Shown here: piece by piece, positions 45,077 to 53,079 of the stretch | Layout: every line of letters starts with the position of its first letter | Position numbering within the stretch: the stretch's first letter is position 1 | Source of the DNA: Phocaeicola dorei | GTDB taxonomy: Bacteria > Bacteroidota > Bacteroidia > Bacteroidales > Bacteroidaceae | Length of the DNA: 64,000 bases | Assembly: GCF_013009555.1 (NCBI RefSeq) | Contig: NZ_CP046176.1 | Span: 5,301,501 to 5,365,500, forward strand | Direction: 5' to 3' | Program-made: the position numbers and the translations under genes | The notes under the pieces: model-generated | The model's input: the letters and a program-made list of their open reading frames with translations, nothing else | Told to the model about the DNA's origin: nothing | Databases searched by the model: none

Positions 45077-48000
45077 ATGAGCAGATTTTCTTCATTATTA
45101 TGTAGCTTGCTATTCTGCATGATTACATATGCACAGGAAATTACAGTAACTGGTAAAGTCACCGCAGGAGGCGAAGAAATGCCTGGTGTCACAGTAGCTG
45201 TAAAAGGACAAACTCGCGGTACCATCACTTCTACCGATGGCAGCTACCAGATTCAGGTTAACGGCAATGAAAGCCTGATCTTCTCTTTTGTAGGTTACGA
45301 AACAGTAACTATACCGATAAACAAACGCAAAGTTATTAACGTAGAATTGAAGGAAACAACCCAAATGGTAGATGAAGTAGTTATAACCGTTCCTTACGGT
45401 ACTGCCAAAAAATCCACATTTACAGGGTCTGCAAGCTATATTGCCGCCGGCACTATTGAAAAAGCACAGGTCAGTAGTGTGTCAAAAGCATTGCAAGGAA
45501 CTGTAGCTGGTTTACAGTCTTTTTCCTCCAGCGGTCAACCCGGATCAGACGCAACTATCCTGATTCGTGGAGTTGGTTCTGTAAACGCTTCAACCAATCC
45601 CCTCTATGTGGTCGATGGTGTTCCTTACGATGGTGCTCTTTCCTCCATAGCATCTTCAGATATTGCGTCAATCACTGTATTAAAAGATGCAGCTTCCGCT
45701 GCATTGTATGGCTCACGTGCAGCAAACGGCGTAATTATGATCACCACCAAACAAGGAAATAAAGATAGCGCACCCACCGTTGAATTATCTGCTAAATATG
45801 GTTTTTCAAGCCGTGCACGCGCAGACTACGACCAGTTGAATACAAACCAATATTATGAATTATATTGGGAAGCCATGCGTAACTATCGTATGGACAACGG
45901 TTACTCTGCCGAAGAAGCTGCAGCATGGGCATCAAGCAATGTTACAGGCAATCTAGGCATCAACCCTTATGGCAGTGCTTACCCTGAGCCAATCGGCCAT
46001 GACGGAAAACTGGTAGCAGGTGCCAAACCATTATGGAACGACAGCTGGGACGACGCCCTTTCACAAGATGCACACTATACAGATTTAAATGTACACGTAA
46101 GTGGTGGTAGCAAAACCTCCAAATATTTTGTTTCAGCAGGTTACATGGATGATCAAGGTGCTTATATCTGCTCTGGTTTCAAACGCTATACTCTCCGCGC
46201 CAACGTGACTTCAGATATCCGCAAATGGTTACAGATCGGATTGAATGTATCAGGAACTCATTCTGTTCAAGACTATCCCAAGCAAGATGACTCAACAATC
46301 TCCAATGTGGTCATGTTTGCCCGTTCATTGCCATCATTCTATCCAGTGTATCAACGTGACTTGGCAACTGGAGCATATTTATTGGACGAAAATGGTAACC
46401 GTATGTTCGATTATGGTGAGTATCGTCCTAACTCGTATGCAAAATATAATCTGCTGGCTTCCATGCCACACGATAAAAGCGAGATAAAACGCGATGCTGC
46501 TTCTTTACGTGGCTTTATCCAAATAACTCCTATCGAAGGACTTTCTTACAAAATGTCTTTGAATATTGACTATAATAACAAAACAAATCATGACTACACC
46601 AATCCTACTTACGGTACAGGTTCTATCAGTGGTGGCAGCGTAAGCAAATACAACTACCGCACTACAGGCATGACTTTTAATAATGTCATTAATTATCAAC
46701 ACACGTTCAATGATGTACATGATATCCGTGTGATGGCCGGTCAGGAGTACTATGAATATAACACTTCCAATTTCGGCGGAAGCCGCAGCAAAGTCATCAT
46801 GGATGGATTCTATGAGCCCGACGCAGCTTCCTCTTTAGGTGATTTTGGCGGAAACAGCGACCAATACAAGCTGTTAAGTTTCTTTGGAAGTGCTGAATAC
46901 TCGTACGATCAAAAATACTTCTTATCGGCTTCTGTCCGTTCTGACGGTTCTTCCCGTTTCCATCCGGATCATCGTTGGGGTACTTTCTGGTCAATAGGCG
47001 CATCTTGGAAAATTATGCAGGAAGAGTTTATGAAGGACACATCAGACTGGCTATCTAATTTATCATTGCGTGCCAGCTACGGAGCGCAAGGTAATGACCA
47101 GGTAGGTTATTATGCGTATCAGGCGCTCTATTCCATACGTAATAACCTCGGTGAATCCGGTTTGCATGCTTATCGTCTGGCAACTCCTAATTTATCATGG
47201 GAAACCAATCTAAATACTAATATCGGCTTGGATTTTGGTTTCTGGAACAATCGCCTAAGTGGTACAATCGAATACTTTGAACGTCGTTCCAAAGATTTAT
47301 TATTCTCTAAAGACTTAGTTCCATCTTCAGGTTTCTCAAGTATGGACGAAAATATTGGTGCCATCAAAAATTATGGATGGGAATTCCAAATCTCAGGATA
47401 TCCTATCATGACTAAAGATTGGAAATGGAAACTTTCTTTTAATGCTACTACCTATAAAAACAAAATAACCTCATTACCTGCCGAAGAAATGTGGAGTGGC
47501 AACAAGAAATGGGTAAAAGGAGGATCGTTATATGACTTCTATTTAGTAGAATGGGCTGGTGTCAATCCTGAAAATGGTAATCCCATGTGGTATCGTTACA
47601 ATACCAACGGAGAAAAAGTAACCACAGAAGACTATTCATCAACCACACCGGACGACAAAGTAAAATGTGGCAATTCACTACCAGACTGGACTGGCGGTCT
47701 TCAATCAGATCTTTCATTCAAAGATTTTACATTATCATTCTTATTCTCTTATTCCATTGGTGGTAAAATCTATAATGGGGATAAAGTTTCATTGATGAGC
47801 CAAGGACCTACAGGTACCAGTTGGAGCGTAGATATGTTAGACCGTTGGACTCCTGAAAATCCCTATACCGATGTACCACGTCTGACTACTTCTCCCAAAA
47901 GCTCATGGACAAACTCTTCAAATCGGTTCTTAGTTGACCGTTCATACTTACGTCTGAAGAATATTACATTCTCTTACAATCTGCCGAAGTCATTGCTGAA

Positions 48001-48163
48001 CACATTGACACTGAAAGATGCAAGCATATTTTTTCAAGCAGAAAATATGCTGACATTAGCCAAACAACAAGGTCTAGACCCAGAGCAAACTTTCGGAGGC
48101 TCTACTTACTATCGTTATCCGGCAATGAAAACTATTTCATTCGGTATCAATGTGAAACTTTAA
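45077..48163 (+). CDS. SusC/RagA-family TonB-dependent receptor (partner SusD is disrupted)
   Basis: A 1028-residue outer membrane importer. A signal peptide (about 1-19, ending TYAQ) precedes a carboxypeptidase-regulatory-like domain (about 23-95: TVTGKVTAGGEEMPGVTV), a TonB-box-like EVVITVPYG, a plug (LQGTVAGLQSFSSSGQPG, NPLYVVDGVPYD, IASITVLKDAASAALYGSRA) and a barrel ending FGINVKL. The frame is intact, unlike the SusD gene 15 bases downstream. It is distinct from the SusC at 1187. Any function needing SusD should be lost while the transposon is present. Confidence 0.93.
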   Translation: MSRFSSLLCSLLFCMITYAQEITVTGKVTAGGEEMPGVTVAVKGQTRGTITSTDGSYQIQVNGNESLIFSFVGYETVTIPINKRKVINVELKETTQMVDEVVITVPYGTAKKSTFTGSASYIAAGTIEKAQVSSVSKALQGTVAGLQSFSSSGQPGSDATILIRGVGSVNASTNPLYVVDGVPYDGALSSIASSDIASITVLKDAASAALYGSRAANGVIMITTKQGNKDSAPTVELSAKYGFSSRARADYDQLNTNQYYELYWEAMRNYRMDNGYSAEEAAAWASSNVTGNLGINPYGSAYPEPIGHDGKLVAGAKPLWNDSWDDALSQDAHYTDLNVHVSGGSKTSKYFVSAGYMDDQGAYICSGFKRYTLRANVTSDIRKWLQIGLNVSGTHSVQDYPKQDDSTISNVVMFARSLPSFYPVYQRDLATGAYLLDENGNRMFDYGEYRPNSYAKYNLLASMPHDKSEIKRDAASLRGFIQITPIEGLSYKMSLNIDYNNKTNHDYTNPTYGTGSISGGSVSKYNYRTTGMTFNNVINYQHTFNDVHDIRVMAGQEYYEYNTSNFGGSRSKVIMDGFYEPDAASSLGDFGGNSDQYKLLSFFGSAEYSYDQKYFLSASVRSDGSSRFHPDHRWGTFWSIGASWKIMQEEFMKDTSDWLSNLSLRASYGAQGNDQVGYYAYQALYSIRNNLGESGLHAYRLATPNLSWETNLNTNIGLDFGFWNNRLSGTIEYFERRSKDLLFSKDLVPSSGFSSMDENIGAIKNYGWEFQISGYPIMTKDWKWKLSFNATTYKNKITSLPAEEMWSGNKKWVKGGSLYDFYLVEWAGVNPENGNPMWYRYNTNGEKVTTEDYSSTTPDDKVKCGNSLPDWTGGLQSDLSFKDFTLSFLFSYSIGGKIYNGDKVSLMSQGPTGTSWSVDMLDRWTPENPYTDVPRLTTSPKSSWTNSSNRFLVDRSYLRLKNITFSYNLPKSLLNTLTLKDASIFFQAENMLTLAKQQGLDPEQTFGGSTYYRYPAMKTISFGINVKL

Positions 48164-48178
48164 TACAGAAAGAAGAAT

Positions 48179-48476
48179 ATGAAAACTATTTTTAAATATA
48201 TATTTTCAGTCGCACTGGGAAGTATAATGCTCACTTCCTGCGATTTGGATACAATTCCTACAACTTATGTAGATGCCGGTTCTGTTTTCGGTAAAACAGG
48301 AGATGCCGAAAAAGTACTTAATGGTGGTTGGAACTACCTGATGGAAACTTTCAATTCTTACGCCAACCCTGGCTATGGAGCAATGTTACGTGCAAATGAT
48401 GCAATGGGTTCTGACGTAGTACTAAACACCAAATATGGTTTTAGAGCACACAATGAATTTACCGCTATTTATGGAA
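48179..48476 (+). pseudogene. SusD-like lipoprotein, 5' fragment (split by transposon)
   Basis: The first 99 codons of a SusD/RagB-family lipoprotein: signal peptide with LTSC lipobox (about 18-21), then a typical SusD start (DLDTIPTTYVDAGSVFG, GGWNYLMETF). The last 8 bases (48469-48476) are the target duplication. Reading on into the element meets a TAA at 48482-48484, giving a 101-residue dead product. The remainder is at 51827-53079; joining the two pieces gives 1551 bases, a continuous 517-codon frame including stop. The lost start-to-middle part includes helices that contact SusC. Confidence 0.93.
48469..48476 (+). repeat. Left 8-bp target-site duplication
   Basis: TTATGGAA, identical to 51819-51826. 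Eight bases is the usual duplication length for IS1595-family elements. Confidence 0.95.
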
Positions 48477-48529
48477 GGTATTAAGGAACAAGTGAACACC
48501 ATTGCAAATCGTTATAACAAATGGTTATA
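48477..48529 (+). repeat. Left end of the transposon (TIR plus subterminal block)
   Basis: The outer 24 bases begin GGTATTAAGG. The inner block at 48511-48529 reads GTTATAACAAATGGTTATA and matches the right end at the same offset. Confidence 0.85.
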
Positions 48530-48552
48530 CTTGTTACATAATATATTATTTG

Positions 48553-49095
48553 CTACTTGTTACCGCAACAATGTTTATATTTCTTTCCACTTCCACATGG
48601 GCATGGATCATTTCTTCCGGGTATCTTATCTTTTACAACGTTTACTCCCTCTTTCATACCTCGTACAAAATCAATTGTTTGAATAGATGGGGTACGGAAT
48701 GACATTGTAGTATGTTTATTATAATTTGTAATGCTAAAATCCCCTGTAGTAATAATATCCATTCCTATAAGCATTCCAATATCTTTATTAGAAGATAATT
48801 CTTCACATTCTGTTACTACTACGTCTAAAGTTATATTGTTATTATTAAGAGTTATGTTTATAAAATATGAATTTACCTCTTTTGCTCCATGAACACCATT
48901 TACAATTGTTCTTCCAGTAGGTACTAATCCTAACTGGCAAGCTGATGATCTTGTGATAACAGAATTTGTTGCACCTGTATCCCATATTCCGTTAGTTTTA
49001 ATATATTTACCATCAAATGTGTTTTTTAAAGTAACAGGAGTGACAATAGCATTCAATAAACTTTTTGCTTTAATTGTAAGTGCATTAATTTTCAT
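48553..49095 (-). CDS. Retropepsin-like aspartic protease with C-terminal SEC-C zinc motif (transposon cargo)
   Basis: A 180-residue protein. The N-terminal part matches bacterial retropepsin-like proteases: [14 protein letters not shown] has the catalytic DTGA at about 37-40, followed by a flap-like [18 protein letters not shown] and the later [17 protein letters not shown] segment that closes the fold. The last ~25 residues are a SEC-C motif ([20 protein letters not shown]), the zinc-binding peptide known from SecA and from nucleic-acid- or ribosome-associated proteins. I start at ATG 49095, because an upstream in-frame TTG overlaps the preceding stop. It is one base after the DUF5678-like gene, so the two form a cassette. 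No signal peptide: cytoplasmic. Confidence 0.85.
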
Positions 49096-49096
49096 T

Positions 49097-49342
49097 TTAG
49101 GCAAATATTACTCGTGAATGAAAAGTTTGTGTATATCCGCTTTCTCCTTCTGAACATAATTGTATTATAAATGTTCCTAATTCAAGACCACCATCCAAAG
49201 CCTTACTCAAAGCATCTTTAAAAGAATCTCCACAAAATAGTACATTCCGATCTTTTATGACAATATACTTATTAAAATATTCTTTTAATAGCACATCGTG
49301 ATTTTCTCGAAAGAATTTGAAATCATCGCTTTGCATAATCAT
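49097..49342 (-). CDS. DUF5678-like small protein, partner of the protease
   Basis: About 81 residues from ATG 49342 (an in-frame TTG at 49375 and an ATG at 49336 are alternatives). The pattern [20 protein letters not shown] ... [20 protein letters not shown] matches DUF5678, small bacterial proteins of unknown biochemistry that often precede retropepsin-like protease genes. The next gene is exactly such a protease, starting one base after this stop (TAA-A-ATG). A toxin-antitoxin-like or protease-substrate relationship is possible, but nothing in the sequence proves it. Confidence 0.7.
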
Positions 49343-49437
49343 ATTATTTTTAATTGGTATTTTCTTATACTGCAAAATAACAAAATAATCTCGACAATTA
49401 TTAAAGTCATTAACATTGTTTATCCATTTTGTTTCCG

Positions 49438-49445
49438 CAAATATA
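49438..49445 (-). promoter_or_regulatory. Candidate -7 box of the protease cassette
   Basis: The minus strand reads TATATTTG, an exact TAnnTTTG, about 95 bases upstream of the DUF5678-like start. AT-rich context weakens it. Confidence 0.35.
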
Positions 49446-49530
49446 AAAATATAAATTTACATATCAATGATTAGTAGTTAATATTATATAAATATAACTT
49501 AGATTGAGTATGCTTGGAGTTTATTATTTA

Positions 49531-49538
49531 TATTTTTG
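49531..49538 (+). promoter_or_regulatory. Candidate -7 box of the cargo lipoprotein gene
   Basis: An exact TATTTTTG, 26 bases before the ATG; no well-spaced -33 box. Confidence 0.4.
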
Positions 49539-49564
49539 TTGCAAAATTATAAATCTATTAAATT

Positions 49565-49984
49565 ATGAAGTGGTTATTGTGGATGTCAGTTCTATTTTTT
49601 TTATCATGTGGTAAATCATTTGAAAAAGAAGCGGAGCAACATTTGGATAAAATAATTGAAGATACAGCAATTGACCCAGGTTCTATTAAGCTTAGTGATT
49701 ACGAAGTTATACGTTCCGATGATTCTATTTATTTAACTTCATTTACAATGGAAGGGAAAAATAATATGGGCATGTATAGTTCTAGTGAATTTGGATATAT
49801 ATATGTAAGAAGTGGACAAGAAAGATATTTTTTGTTAGATAAAGCACAAAAAGTGACTCGAATTGTAGATAGTGCCACCAAAATATTTAATGCGGCTAAA
49901 AAGGATAGTAGTTTCATTGGAAATTGGAGCATGATATTCATATTTCAAGTGGAATTGTATGGAAGAAAAATTGAACAGGAATAG
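49565..49984 (+). CDS. Small predicted lipoprotein of unknown function (transposon cargo)
   Basis: A 139-residue protein with a short lipoprotein signal peptide (MKWLLWMSVLFFLSCGK, Cys about 15). The mature part begins with a charged helix (FEKEAEQHLDKIIEDTA), followed by strand-rich sequence (SIKLSDYEVIRSDDSIYLTSF, YGYIY-like FGYIYVRSG). I recognise no family. It could be an envelope immunity or sensing protein. It is followed 18 bases later by a membrane protein, suggesting a two-gene unit. Base composition is very AT-rich. Confidence 0.75.
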   Translation: MKWLLWMSVLFFLSCGKSFEKEAEQHLDKIIEDTAIDPGSIKLSDYEVIRSDDSIYLTSFTMEGKNNMGMYSSSEFGYIYVRSGQERYFLLDKAQKVTRIVDSATKIFNAAKKDSSFIGNWSMIFIFQVELYGRKIEQE

Positions 49985-50002
49985 AAAATAAATAACTAAA
50001 CA

Positions 50003-50455
50003 ATGGAATTAATTATAATATTAATAATTTTTGTAACTGCATTTATAATAGCAGTTAACACTAGAAAAAAACATGTAAGTATGGAAAACAACGTATCACC
50101 TAACAACATCCCATCAGAAGATGGACAGTTTAAACACGAAAACAGATTATCAATGATATCTGGGGTTATATTATTCATTAATATCTTAGGATCTATAGCA
50201 CTTCTCATTACAGGAATTGTAGAATTAAATTCATACAGATCTAATGGATATGGATGGATTTATATAGTTTCATCTATTGCGGTGCTGTTGTCTTCATTTT
50301 TACTTCACTCGTTTTTCATTGTTGTTAAAGAAATATCCATCAATATTAAAAAGAACAACATTTCCCTTACACCCAAAATAAACAATGAAAAGACACACCC
50401 TACTCAATCTAATGTGAAAAGCGATCATCCAGATTGCTTAAGCCAGTGGAAATAA
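50003..50455 (+). CDS. Predicted membrane protein of unknown function (transposon cargo)
   Basis: A 150-residue protein with three predicted transmembrane helices: about 2-18 (ELIIILIIFVTAFIIAV), 50-75 (MISGVILFINILGSIALLIT) and 84-108 (WIYIVSSIAVLLSSFLLHSF). A charged linker separates helices 1 and 2, and a hydrophilic tail of about 35 residues ends the protein. No enzymatic motif is seen. It lies close behind the lipoprotein gene and is followed by a strong terminator, so the pair is a self-contained unit inside the element. Confidence 0.72.
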   Translation: MELIIILIIFVTAFIIAVNTRKKHVSMENNVSPNNIPSEDGQFKHENRLSMISGVILFINILGSIALLITGIVELNSYRSNGYGWIYIVSSIAVLLSSFLLHSFFIVVKEISINIKKNNISLTPKINNEKTHPTQSNVKSDHPDCLSQWK

Positions 50456-50467
50456 AAAGAACGATAT

Positions 50468-50500
50468 AGGCACTGAAATTTCAGTGCCTTTTTTATTTTA
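50468..50500 (+). terminator. Terminator after the cargo membrane-protein gene
   Basis: A perfect 22-bp palindrome (50468-50489): AGGCACTG and CAGTGCCT around AAATTT, followed by TTTTTATTTTA. It ends the lipoprotein/membrane-protein unit before the converging transposase genes. Confidence 0.85.
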
Positions 50501-50556
50501 CCTAAAAACTTTAGGACATATTCTATATTACTACAATATTCTTTTAGAAAAGGTAT

Positions 50557-50712
50557 TCATTTTTTCTTTTCCCCCTTATTCATTGCTTCCAGAATCTTTA
50601 TCCATGATTCAGGAACTTCCACATCCATGATGTTCCCATCTCCATCTTTTACGATGTATTTATTCTTCTTTTTCTTTTCGTCCTTTGGCTTTTCTTTCTT
50701 ATTATCCTGCAT
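50557..50712 (-). CDS. Lysine-rich 51-residue protein overlapping the transposase 3' end
   Basis: Starts at ATG 50710-50712, 11 bases inside the transposase gene, and stops at 50557-50559. The first 18 residues are almost all Lys/Asp/Glu/Gln/Asn (MQDNKKEKPKDEKKKKNK), followed by a compact YIVKDGDGNIMDVEVPESW segment and a helical KILEAMNKGEKKK tail. The overlap implies translation coupled to the transposase. It may be a DNA- or transposase-binding accessory protein of this IS group. I know no named family. Confidence 0.6.
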   Translation of the reverse strand: MQDNKKEKPKDEKKKKNKYIVKDGDGNIMDVEVPESWIKILEAMNKGEKKK

Positions 50713-51625
50713 ATCTGTAATCTCCTATATCTAAGTATTGCAAAAGTAATCTAAATCTGTCAGAATCGCTAAGTTTTCTAGTATTAAATCTAAAGACAAA
50801 TTCATCTACATAGCGTTGCATATATTTTTTGCTTATATGATAATACGTGGCGTATATCCTCTTGAAAACAGACCAAGCGTTTTCTATCGTATTGGTAGTA
50901 ATCATCACCGTTTCTTTATTCTCATTGTAATAAGTAATACCATAATACTTGTGCCCGTGGTCTACAGATATCTGGTTGTACATTTCGGATACTTCGCCAT
51001 AGTCCCATCCATCAGTATATATTGTACTTCCTTCTTCAACATATTTTCTTATAATTGGAAGCAGCTTGGATGGACCTGTTCCGCTTACTACTTTGGCAAC
51101 CAAATCCCCATTTCTGCCTATTAGTCCAAAAACAGGAACTTTGTCTTTAAAACTTCTCCCCTGGCATCTCTCCACTTTTTTATCCTTGTGTCGGTTTGCA
51201 TTCTTTCCACCTGCAAATGATTCATCAATCTCAACTTCTCCTTCAAGATGGTAATCGTTTTCTCCTGTCATAGCCTTACGAATCTTATGCAACATACGCC
51301 ATGCGGTCTTTTGAGAAACATCAATATCTCTAGATACCTGATAGGAAGATATGCCTCTTTTCCCTTGAGCAAATAACCACATAACATAGAACCATTTAGT
51401 GAAAGGGACCTTACTGTTTGCAAAGCACGTTCCTGTTTTTACTGTGAAATACCTGTTTGTGTTCTTGCATTTATACTTATGATTCTTGCATTTATAAACC
51501 TTGGAGGTAGGATCAAATGGAGAAACAACTTTGTCACCCCATTTCCATTGTTCGTACAGGTCATAACAAGCATTTTCATCCTTTACAATCTGTATAAACT
51601 CTAGAAAATTCATTGACTTTTTCAT
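50702..51625 (-). CDS. IS1595-family (ISXO2-like) transposase
   Basis: A 307-residue transposase. The N-terminal Cys-rich segment (YKCKNHKYKCKNTNRYF, TGTCF) is the zinc-ribbon domain, followed by a helix-turn-helix-like SYQVSRDIDVSQKTAWRMLHKI. The ISXO2-like DDE domain holds EIDESFAGGKN (first Asp), IYTDGWDYGEV (second Asp) and TNTIENAWSVFKR (third acidic position). ATG 51625 is chosen because AAAGGAGG lies 4 bases upstream. All three catalytic positions are present, so it may still be active. Confidence 0.93.
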   Translation of the reverse strand: MKKSMNFLEFIQIVKDENACYDLYEQWKWGDKVVSPFDPTSKVYKCKNHKYKCKNTNRYFTVKTGTCFANSKVPFTKWFYVMWLFAQGKRGISSYQVSRDIDVSQKTAWRMLHKIRKAMTGENDYHLEGEVEIDESFAGGKNANRHKDKKVERCQGRSFKDKVPVFGLIGRNGDLVAKVVSGTGPSKLLPIIRKYVEEGSTIYTDGWDYGEVSEMYNQISVDHGHKYYGITYYNENKETVMITTNTIENAWSVFKRIYATYYHISKKYMQRYVDEFVFRFNTRKLSDSDRFRLLLQYLDIGDYRYAG

Positions 51626-51629
51626 ACAG

Positions 51630-51637
51630 CCTCCTTT
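51630..51637 (-). promoter_or_regulatory. Strong Shine-Dalgarno of the transposase gene
   Basis: The minus strand reads AAAGGAGG, then CTGT, then ATG (51625). It is unlike the weak sites of host genes here, which suggests adaptation to other hosts. Confidence 0.7.
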
Positions 51638-51765
51638 TCTTTGATTCTTTTGCAATATAACGATAAAAAGTTAAATATGCAAATAAATATAAAGAAAAGA
51701 TAGACTGTAATATTATGTTATATAAATTTATAAGTTTAAGTTGACACAAGTAGAAAATATATAAT

Positions 51766-51818
51766 TATAACATTTTGTTATAGCTTATTTATCAAGTGTC
51801 CATTTATTCCTTAATGCC
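51766..51818 (-). repeat. Right end of the transposon (TIR plus subterminal block)
   Basis: Read on the minus strand, the end is GGCATTAAGGAATAAATG. The subterminal block is at 51766-51784. Both mirror the left end. Confidence 0.85.
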
Positions 51819-51826
51819 TTATGGAA
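51819..51826 (+). repeat. Right 8-bp target-site duplication
   Basis: TTATGGAA, the second copy of the duplication at 48469-48476. Confidence 0.95.
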
Positions 51827-53079
51827 AAGGGGGCACAAATACCCTAAGCTGGCTTTTAGCATACCGTGTTATTAATGACTGCAATGGTGTATTAGATAAT
51901 ATTGATGCTGCCGAAGGCACACAAATTGACAGAAATCGAATCAAGGGACAAGCGTTAGCCTTACGTGGTTTTCTATATTTACATCTAGCTTCTTGTTATT
52001 CTTTTGCCATTGATAAAGATCCAGAAGCTGTATGTGCACCTATCTATACACAATCAACAGATGAAACAATTGCAGCTGAAGGAAAACCTGCATCAAGTGT
52101 CAGTGAAGTATATGCGCAATCTATCAATGATTTAGAAGAAGCATTAGAACTTATTCCCGAAACTTATGTACGTGACGCCAAACACAAAATTGATAATGAA
52201 GTTGTCCTAGGTATTCTCTCACGTGCCTGTCTTTATGCTCGTCAATGGGAAAAAGCTAAAACTTACTCAGACAAATTGTTAGCTAAAAACAATTATCTAA
52301 TGACTGAAAGTGAATATAAAGCTGGATTCAATTCTGTAGACAATAAAGAATGGATTTGGGGGCATGCTCAAACCAACGATCAAAGTAATGCCAGTTATCA
52401 GTTTCATTATTTAGATACTACAACTAAAGGATCATACTATTATAGCTTCAATGCAGACCCTTACTTCCGTGATTTGTTCGAAGATGGTGATTATCGTAAA
52501 GATATGCTGTTCTGGGCTACAGATCCAGGAGCTGACGTTGAATCAGCAGCCTATGTATGGATGCGTAACTCTAAATTCAGATTCCGCGATATCGAAAACC
52601 AACTTGGTGATATCGTATTGATGCGCGTTGCTGAAATTTATTTGATAAATGCAGAGGCAAAAGCACATCTGAATGACCCAGATGCAATTAACAAATTAAA
52701 TGATTTAAAAACAGCCAGAGGAGCAAAAACTATTAATACAAATCTTTCACAACAGGATCTATTGGAAACAATTTGGTTAGAACGCCGCAAAGAATTATGG
52801 GGTGAAGGATTCAGTTTGATAGACATTATCCGTAACCAACAGGCTGTAGTCCGCAAAGCATATCCCGAAGGTCCCATTGACTATATTTACACTGATGAAA
52901 ACGGACAAACTCACACACTTAAGAAAAAAACTCAAGGACATCGCTTCTTCAATTTTCCCGATAAAAGTGCGTTCTGTCCAAATAGTAAATATTATTTATA
53001 CAGAATTACAGATGCAGAAGAACTAGCGAATAAGAACCTTTACAAAGATCATCCTAAGCTCTCAATTTATACAGAATAA
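51827..53079 (+). pseudogene. SusD-like lipoprotein, 3' fragment
   Basis: The remaining ~417 codons of the split SusD. It includes the SusD helices (LALRGFLYLHLASCYSFAID near its start, the family's hallmark), then RVAEIYLINAEAKAHL and the C-terminal TIWLERRKELWGEGFSLIDIIR. The open frame can be extended into the element end to GTG 51796, but that product would lack the signal peptide and could not reach the surface. A terminator follows at 53101. Confidence 0.93.

Follow-up and report, generated by a model that had tools for sequence, protein, structure and literature searches.

Transporter insertion sequences (tISs) are defined by passenger genes unrelated to transposition that lie within one pair of insertion sequence (IS) ends (PMC3129680, PMC9330008), and IS1595-family elements carrying such passengers are already in print (PMC3129680, PMC5704250, PMC8496243, PMC9330008; statements drawn from these and the other papers cited here refer to the excerpts that were available). 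In the 64,000-nucleotide stretch of Phocaeicola dorei DNA analysed here (contig NZ_CP046176.1, positions 5,301,501 to 5,365,500; referred to as the window) a 3342-bp element with passenger genes between one pair of IS ends was delimited to the base. This element is very probably an IS1595-family tIS inserted in a susD gene and mobilized as proposed below. The founding paper on such elements is said to be Siguier 2009. As cargo-bearing IS1595 elements, namely MTnSag1 and tISCpe8, are in print, the kind of element is known, and its points of interest are a twin with swapped cargo and an unexplained protease gene pair. An earlier reading of the window from its letters only (the sequence-only reading) had suggested that an element with this gene set may be undescribed. 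That does not hold for the kind. No description of the element itself, of a Bacteroidota IS1595 cargo lineage or of the protease pair was, however, recognised in the literature searched, which comprised titles and the beginnings of abstracts and few subscription journals.

The element splits the susD gene, and an intact susC frame lies upstream (Table 1). Rejoining the two flanks with one copy of the octamer TTATGGAA restored a single open SusD frame of 516 amino acids (aa). In P. vulgatus ATCC 8482 the susD orthologue is uninterrupted, aligns without gaps over the junction and carries one TTATGGAA exactly at that point. Because this orthologue is intact with a single octamer, the element is an insertion that broke susD. 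The sequence-only reading had placed the insertion within a SusD gene, with edges exact to the base at the two octamer copies, and was correct in both; the empty homologous site, where it had considered that the octamer might be lacking, contains TTATGGAA in P. vulgatus. Taken by itself the octamer is weak evidence, because 13 copies occur in the window as compared to 5.2 expected.

More weight is carried by the ends. Terminal inverted repeats starting with GG, GGTATTAAGGAACAAGTGAACACC at the left and GGCATTAAGGAATAAATGGACACT at the right (as reverse complement), match at 19 of 24 positions, and further in, at an equal offset from each end, the subterminal block TATAACAAATGGTTATACTT and its partner are 85% complementary over 20 nt. 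Both the related ends and the second block had been pointed out previously and were recovered. GG-starting ends are typical of the IS1595 family, and the element thereby shows two features of that family, such repeats and an 8-bp target duplication. Chance ends were rejected, as ends together with an exact 8-bp duplication were found at 57 of the 104 related transposase loci but at none of them when, as a control, the far end was reversed without complementing. Cargo between two similar ends might also point to a composite transposon, or to an end derived from two IS copies around captured host DNA. This is extremely improbable, as the ends are single short repeats and not IS copies, long flanking repeats are absent and the only IS1595-family transposase found in the P. 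dorei genome is that of the element, which is itself present in a single copy.

The IS1595-type assignment made from the sequence alone was upheld by scores well over the cut-offs for PF12762 (144.7 bits, cut-off 27) and NF033547 (195.3 bits, cut-off 75). The catalytic residues D134, D205, E248 and K255 were invariant in 9 of 9 aligned transposases, the window one included, and follow the DDE-plus-K pattern as quoted for IS1016-type members (PMC12561309). The transposase looks intact and is presumably active. Its profile found no match among PDB chains at E≤0.01. In IMG/VR neither a relative of the transposase nor a copy of the end pattern was found, and matches in 2 phage records, one of them locus L125 below, and 365 plasmid records were below 60% identity at the best place in each; across these collections no close relative was found in phages or plasmids. 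One plasmid locus, L122 (CP103229.1, 39646-40572), lies on a Bacteroides faecis plasmid typed as conjugative and encodes an IS1595 transposase of 48% identity with a 423-aa hypothetical protein directly downstream; ends of an element were not found there.

In the proposed mechanism the DDE(K) transposase and an overlapping short open reading frame (ORF), ORF2, would be read inward from the right end. The transposase would act on the two GG-starting ends, and probably on the subterminal blocks too, cutting at the GG ends and inserting them into AT-rich DNA with a stagger of 8 bp. A circular intermediate is possible, since circles have been reported for ISApl4 (PMC12561309) and MTnSag1 (PMC5704250).

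A twin of the element was found in P. vulgatus ATCC 8482 (genome G011, locus L042). This 4641-bp element has the same ends and sits at another locus, flanked by the duplication AAAATTTA; its flanks had no match in the P. dorei genome save a 43-base match elsewhere. The transposases are 98% identical in amino acids and the transposition module 96.8% identical in DNA, and homology ends 15 bp beyond the stop codon of the 51-aa ORF2. The cargo comprises four genes in the window versus five ORFs in L042 (242, 197, 147, 180 and 74 aa), and no protein match between them was obtained at E≤1e-4 apart from ORF2. Thus the support that the sequence-only reading had named, namely the same boundaries at another locus with a different duplication and swapped cargo, exists. 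Its estimate that two thirds of the element is not transposition machinery was right in that the majority is cargo, but the share is nearer 60%, about 2.0 of 3.34 kb, because the module shared with P. vulgatus amounts to 1277 bp plus a 64-bp left end. An argument for recent transfer from sequence identity was dropped because the module (96.8%) is no more alike in the two species than the host susC (96.7%; susD, 93.4%). A related cargo also turned up in L125 (MT838557.1, a human faecal scaffold labelled phage), where a 2941-bp element with perfect 24-bp ends and the duplication AATACGAA encodes a transposase 58% identical to the P. vulgatus one and a cargo pair homologous to two L042 ORFs (45% and 54%).

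ORF2, a short second gene overlapping the end of the transposase gene, was missing from the gene list of the sequence-only reading. It is the sole cargo-side ORF common to the window and P. vulgatus elements and, as it is kept in the twin with swapped cargo, it may be accessory to transposition, helping or regulating the transposase. In 15 of 69 loci (the window, L042, L004-L006, L052, L055-L058, L060, L064, L066, L088 and L098) the gene directly after the transposase, in many cases overlapping its stop, encodes a short charged protein of 49-67 aa, and these proteins have a loose common core around (I/V)P..(F/W)....A(M/L). A short gene coupled to the transposase is less expected for IS1595 cargo elements, as is the protease gene pair described below. 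Elsewhere the same slot, as read from translations, holds RhuM (L061, L062), KilA-N (L063), a small helix-turn-helix (HTH) protein (L101, L106) or a DNA methyltransferase (L100, L102, L107).

The wider survey covered 104 distinct related transposase loci, with L007 dropped as a duplicate of L059 and L125 kept outside the counts. A first survey of 69 loci, from which L003 and L008 had been excluded as duplicates of L052 and L063, gave exact duplications in 40 (L066 counted) and 39 elements that were kept; a second pass added the remaining 36 matches. No end pair was found in 47 of the 104 loci, contig ends and shortened transposases being among them. The 57 delimited elements spanned 1235-7803 bp (median 3001) and 49 of them exceeded 2 kb, for which reason cargo can be called common in this lineage. 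In the first survey long elements had made up 36 of 39, a larger share than the 49 of 57 in the wider one; short elements are not disfavoured by the end scan. Of the eight short elements, one is 1738 bp long and the other seven are multiple copies of two plain elements, found in the genomes G842 and G814. These plain relatives of 1235-1237 bp are multi-copy (L109, L110, L221 and L222 in G842; L234-L236 in G814), unlike cargo-bearing relatives, which mostly occur once per genome. The transposase match starts within 520 bp of the element's upstream end in 47 of 57 elements, the target duplications are 88% A/T and a palindromic target preference was unsupported.

A module and left end that are conserved around a differing middle, as in the two Phocaeicola elements, would also result if a plain IS1595 IS had later received an unrelated mobile piece, the cargo then being an accident of the locus, and plain elements do exist in two relatives' genomes. 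We regard such a nested insertion as very unlikely, as a repeat search revealed neither a second pair of ends nor another duplication flanking the cargo block, most delimited relatives (49 of 57) exceed 2 kb and the same cargo pair occurs inside differently ended elements (L042, L125).

Differing cargo beside similar transposases was seen beyond the twin. Out of 11 first-survey element pairs with transposases at least 80% identical, 4 have no full cargo gene in common: the window and L042 (98%) have only the 51-aa ORF in common, L107 and L108 (88%) only a 58-aa ORF, L076 and L080 (89%) only a 27-residue match, and L004 and L005 (82%) nothing. In L084 and L085 (94%) one 220-aa gene is common and the other gene is not. 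Exchange of cargo would be explained most simply if co-resident elements recombined within the module and left end that they share. Tentatively, these Bacteroidota IS1595 relatives may then be modular cargo shuttles, in which a fixed cassette of transposase and overlapping ORF2 and two short ends would be retained while whole blocks are swapped, among them methyltransferases, Panacea, RhuM and KilA-N genes and genes for secreted and membrane proteins. The cargo scan covered 123 mechanically called ORFs, each 70 aa or longer, from the 39 first-survey elements (without L110, the second copy of the L109 element). Among these ORFs Pfam (E≤1e-3) recognised 20 families, including DNA methylases, HNH, RhuM, SocA/Panacea, KilA-N, BACON and the SEC-C protease. 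PADLOC matched 144 models to these ORFs, and methyltransferases made up all 25 among the matches listed. Two L104 cargo ORFs are antisense to its transposase and probably spurious.

Several observations weigh against the proposed tIS explanation with its exchange of cargo. The N-terminal zinc ribbon PF12760 scored 15.9 bits, below its cut-off of 25.4. Comparison of profiles from two subsets of ORF2-like proteins gave no significant match (probability 3.6%). Roughly 90 bp at 49475-49567, upstream of the lipoprotein gene, are 77% similar to L042 cargo, so that the two cargo blocks are not wholly unrelated; the shared stretch is probably promoter sequence. Six of the 11 pairs, among L053/L054/L087 and the Chryseobacterium trio L009-L011, retain much of their cargo, and given the 4 pairs that do not, exchange appears to be frequent but not universal. 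Finally, no second locus was seen to hold the complete unit with its present cargo; the module was seen again only beside different cargo.

Within the first group of retained cargo (L053 9089-9823, L054 3136-3657, L087 5044-5568) the transposases are 96-98% and the neighbouring cargo 93-100% identical, yet for the long cargo protein L054 shows no more than 42-44% identity with L053 and L087 over 109 residues. Three cargo ORFs match BACON and were read as the long cargo proteins of these elements. In L070, L073, L076, L077 and L080, otherwise different cargo proteins have matches of 25-53 residues in common, and their N-terminal stretch, by eye (I/V)(R/K)LTE..L..(I/V)I.ES...(I/V)L, has the appearance of a conserved leader on variable bodies.

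In the window the cargo consists of two gene pairs that both diverge from 49343-49564. The left pair encodes a retropepsin-like aspartic protease with a SEC-C tail and a DUF5678-like partner, the right pair a putative lipoprotein and a membrane protein. The gene labels of the sequence-only reading were largely upheld. The partner is called DUF5678-like, as it scored 19.7 bits against PF18929, under the gathering cut-off of 23.2; among its 66 aligned relatives, 35 give a match (E≤0.01). The motif WDTGAT was invariant in 10 of 10 aligned proteases, and the profile of this alignment matched the PDB entries 2jys (retroviral-type, clan AA; E 1e-4) and 1sx0, a SecA tail (E 9e-7). No NCBIfam equivalog matched the fusion protease or its partner above its cut-off. 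The protease family is large (5449 matches). Among genomes the window protease was found solely in that of P. dorei among 201 from the host's family (E≤1e-25), and at 1e-15 in 5 of 295 from the host's order, P. dorei included; DNA matches at query 84-142, to many genomes, plasmids and Listeria records, cover the SEC-C region only.

The two genes are usually adjacent. In each of the five other genome loci that were read (L117-L121) a partner gene directly precedes the protease gene. IMG/VR yielded 88 protease relatives, from which 80 loci were kept (L126-L205), at least 62 of which have a DUF5678-like gene immediately upstream under a distance rule, a lower bound because a few more partners were seen just upstream; the SEC-C tail is present in 32 of the 80. 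Annotation of 127 ORFs from 21 of these loci, picked by hand, showed portal, terminase, HTH regulator, antirepressor and methyltransferase genes nearby, and on that account at least some of the loci are phages or prophages. The pair looks like an uncharacterised two-gene phage module. The partner was predicted to form a small alpha/beta domain (mean predicted local distance difference test score 79, predicted template modelling score 0.66), with confidence declining along residues 61-81 (block means 67, 49 and 42). This C-terminal tail is conserved (T71 in 49 of 66 and S76 in 50 of 66 relatives), and a floppy conserved tail beside a protease of the kind that binds extended peptides suggests that it could be a substrate or plug of the protease. 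With this tail the DUF5678-like protein would then hold the retropepsin or feed it, and the SEC-C tail, to judge from SecA biology, might dock the protease on the ribosome or a SecB-type site.

A role of the cargo in conflict between mobile elements is favoured, with considerable reserve. Counting against it, PADLOC gave the window protease weak matches only, which together with the phage structural and regulatory genes nearby in the sampled viral loci would suit a phage or host housekeeping module, for example for protein maturation or turnover, carried as a neutral passenger. That alternative is quite plausible, if somewhat short of an even chance. Speaking against it, the protease is rare in cellular genomes, at 1 of 201 and 5 of 295 in the above searches, and DNA methyltransferases adjoin it at L118 and L120 as read from translations, that is in 2 of the 5 genome loci; rarity and neighbours fit an accessory role and do not prove conflict. 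The full proposal, in which modular cargo shuttles of Bacteroidota carry in the DUF5678-like/SEC-C-retropepsin pair an undescribed conflict system shared with phages, is put forward as a possibility that we rate well below even.

Table 1. Features of the element and its insertion site (window coordinates).
Feature	Position	Strand	Basis or remark
Whole element	48477..51818	.	Ends and duplication; single copy in genome
5' part of interrupted susD	48179..48476	+	Flank joining
3' part of interrupted susD	51819..53079	+	Flank joining
Left copy of 8-bp target duplication TTATGGAA	48469..48476	+	Single copy in P. vulgatus empty site
Right copy of 8-bp target duplication TTATGGAA	51819..51826	+	Single copy in P. 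vulgatus empty site
Left terminal inverted repeat	48477..48500	+	19/24 vs right end; P. vulgatus has same end
Right terminal inverted repeat	51795..51818	-	19/24 vs left end
Left subterminal block, possible transposase-binding site	48513..48532	+	85% complementary to 51763-51782
Right subterminal block	51763..51782	-	20 nt, 85% complementary to 48513-48532
Left end (64 bp) common with P. vulgatus element	48477..48540	+	94%
Transposition module shared with P. vulgatus	50542..51818	-	1236 identities in 1277 aligned positions
IS1595-family transposase, 307 aa from ATG (317 aa from TTG at 51655)	50702..51625	-	PF12762, NF033547
ORF2, 51 aa, overlaps transposase stop; putative accessory role	50557..50712	-	98% identical in P. 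vulgatus
Cargo block of four genes, arranged as two divergent pairs	48541..50541	.	Differs from P. vulgatus element except ~90-bp match
Retropepsin-like aspartic protease, C-terminal SEC-C motif, 180 aa	48553..49095	-	PF13650, PF02810; PDB profile matches
DUF5678-like partner, 81 aa from ATG (92 aa from TTG at 49375)	49097..49342	-	19.7 bits, PF18929
Putative lipoprotein, 139 aa	49565..49984	+	19 homologues, each ≥83% identical; phrog_2320 weak, E 1e-5
Membrane protein, 150 aa	50003..50455	+	67 homologues, each ≥68% identical; weak SLATT-type matches
Terminator-like hairpin between cargo and module	50468..50489	+	3 found in region vs 1.4 expected

The divergent lipoprotein and membrane protein pair may represent a separate surface trait. 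The homologue searches for these two proteins reach only relatives with shared exact words, and a reading of the membrane protein as a SLATT effector was not adopted, its matches being weak only. A database protein, P0139, joins the first 30 residues of the window lipoprotein to a different C-terminus labelled RhuM by Pfam, and may be another cargo combination or an assembly artefact. A membrane-protein match was also obtained on a 4,064,359-bp contig labelled B. sartorii, the same size as the longest contig with a 98% protease, which hints at a copy of the element in that species; the ends there were unreadable. An Rfam scan of 48000-52500 gave nothing at gathering scores.

The survey suggests that small IS-like transposons of Bacteroidota commonly carry passengers, most of which lack a known family. 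The window and P. vulgatus elements, with a 97% identical module and different cargo genes, allow cargo exchange to be studied directly, and the protease and partner genes constitute a widespread, uncharacterised pair that is common to phage contigs and a transposon and is easily testable. Among described systems, MTnSag1 (tISSag10) and tISCpe8 of Firmicutes are alike in combining an IS1595 DDE transposase and a passenger gene in one unit, and in their terminal inverted repeats of about 25 bp, 8-bp duplications and preference for AT-rich sites (PMC5704250). They differ in being 1.7-2.0 kb long with one lincosamide-resistance gene and mobilizable by Tn916 (PMC5704250), whereas the window element is 3.3 kb long and has four non-resistance genes and a short gene overlapping the transposase. 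The plain IS1595/IS1016-type element ISApl4 (712 bp) resembles it in the pattern DES...YTD...GIEN.W...K and in 8-bp A/T-rich duplications, but is described as having no cargo within its ends and 14-bp repeats (PMC12561309). The window protease is by profile like the retroviral-type (clan AA) proteases and the SecA zinc tail, and differs from both in the fusion and in its DUF5678-like partner.

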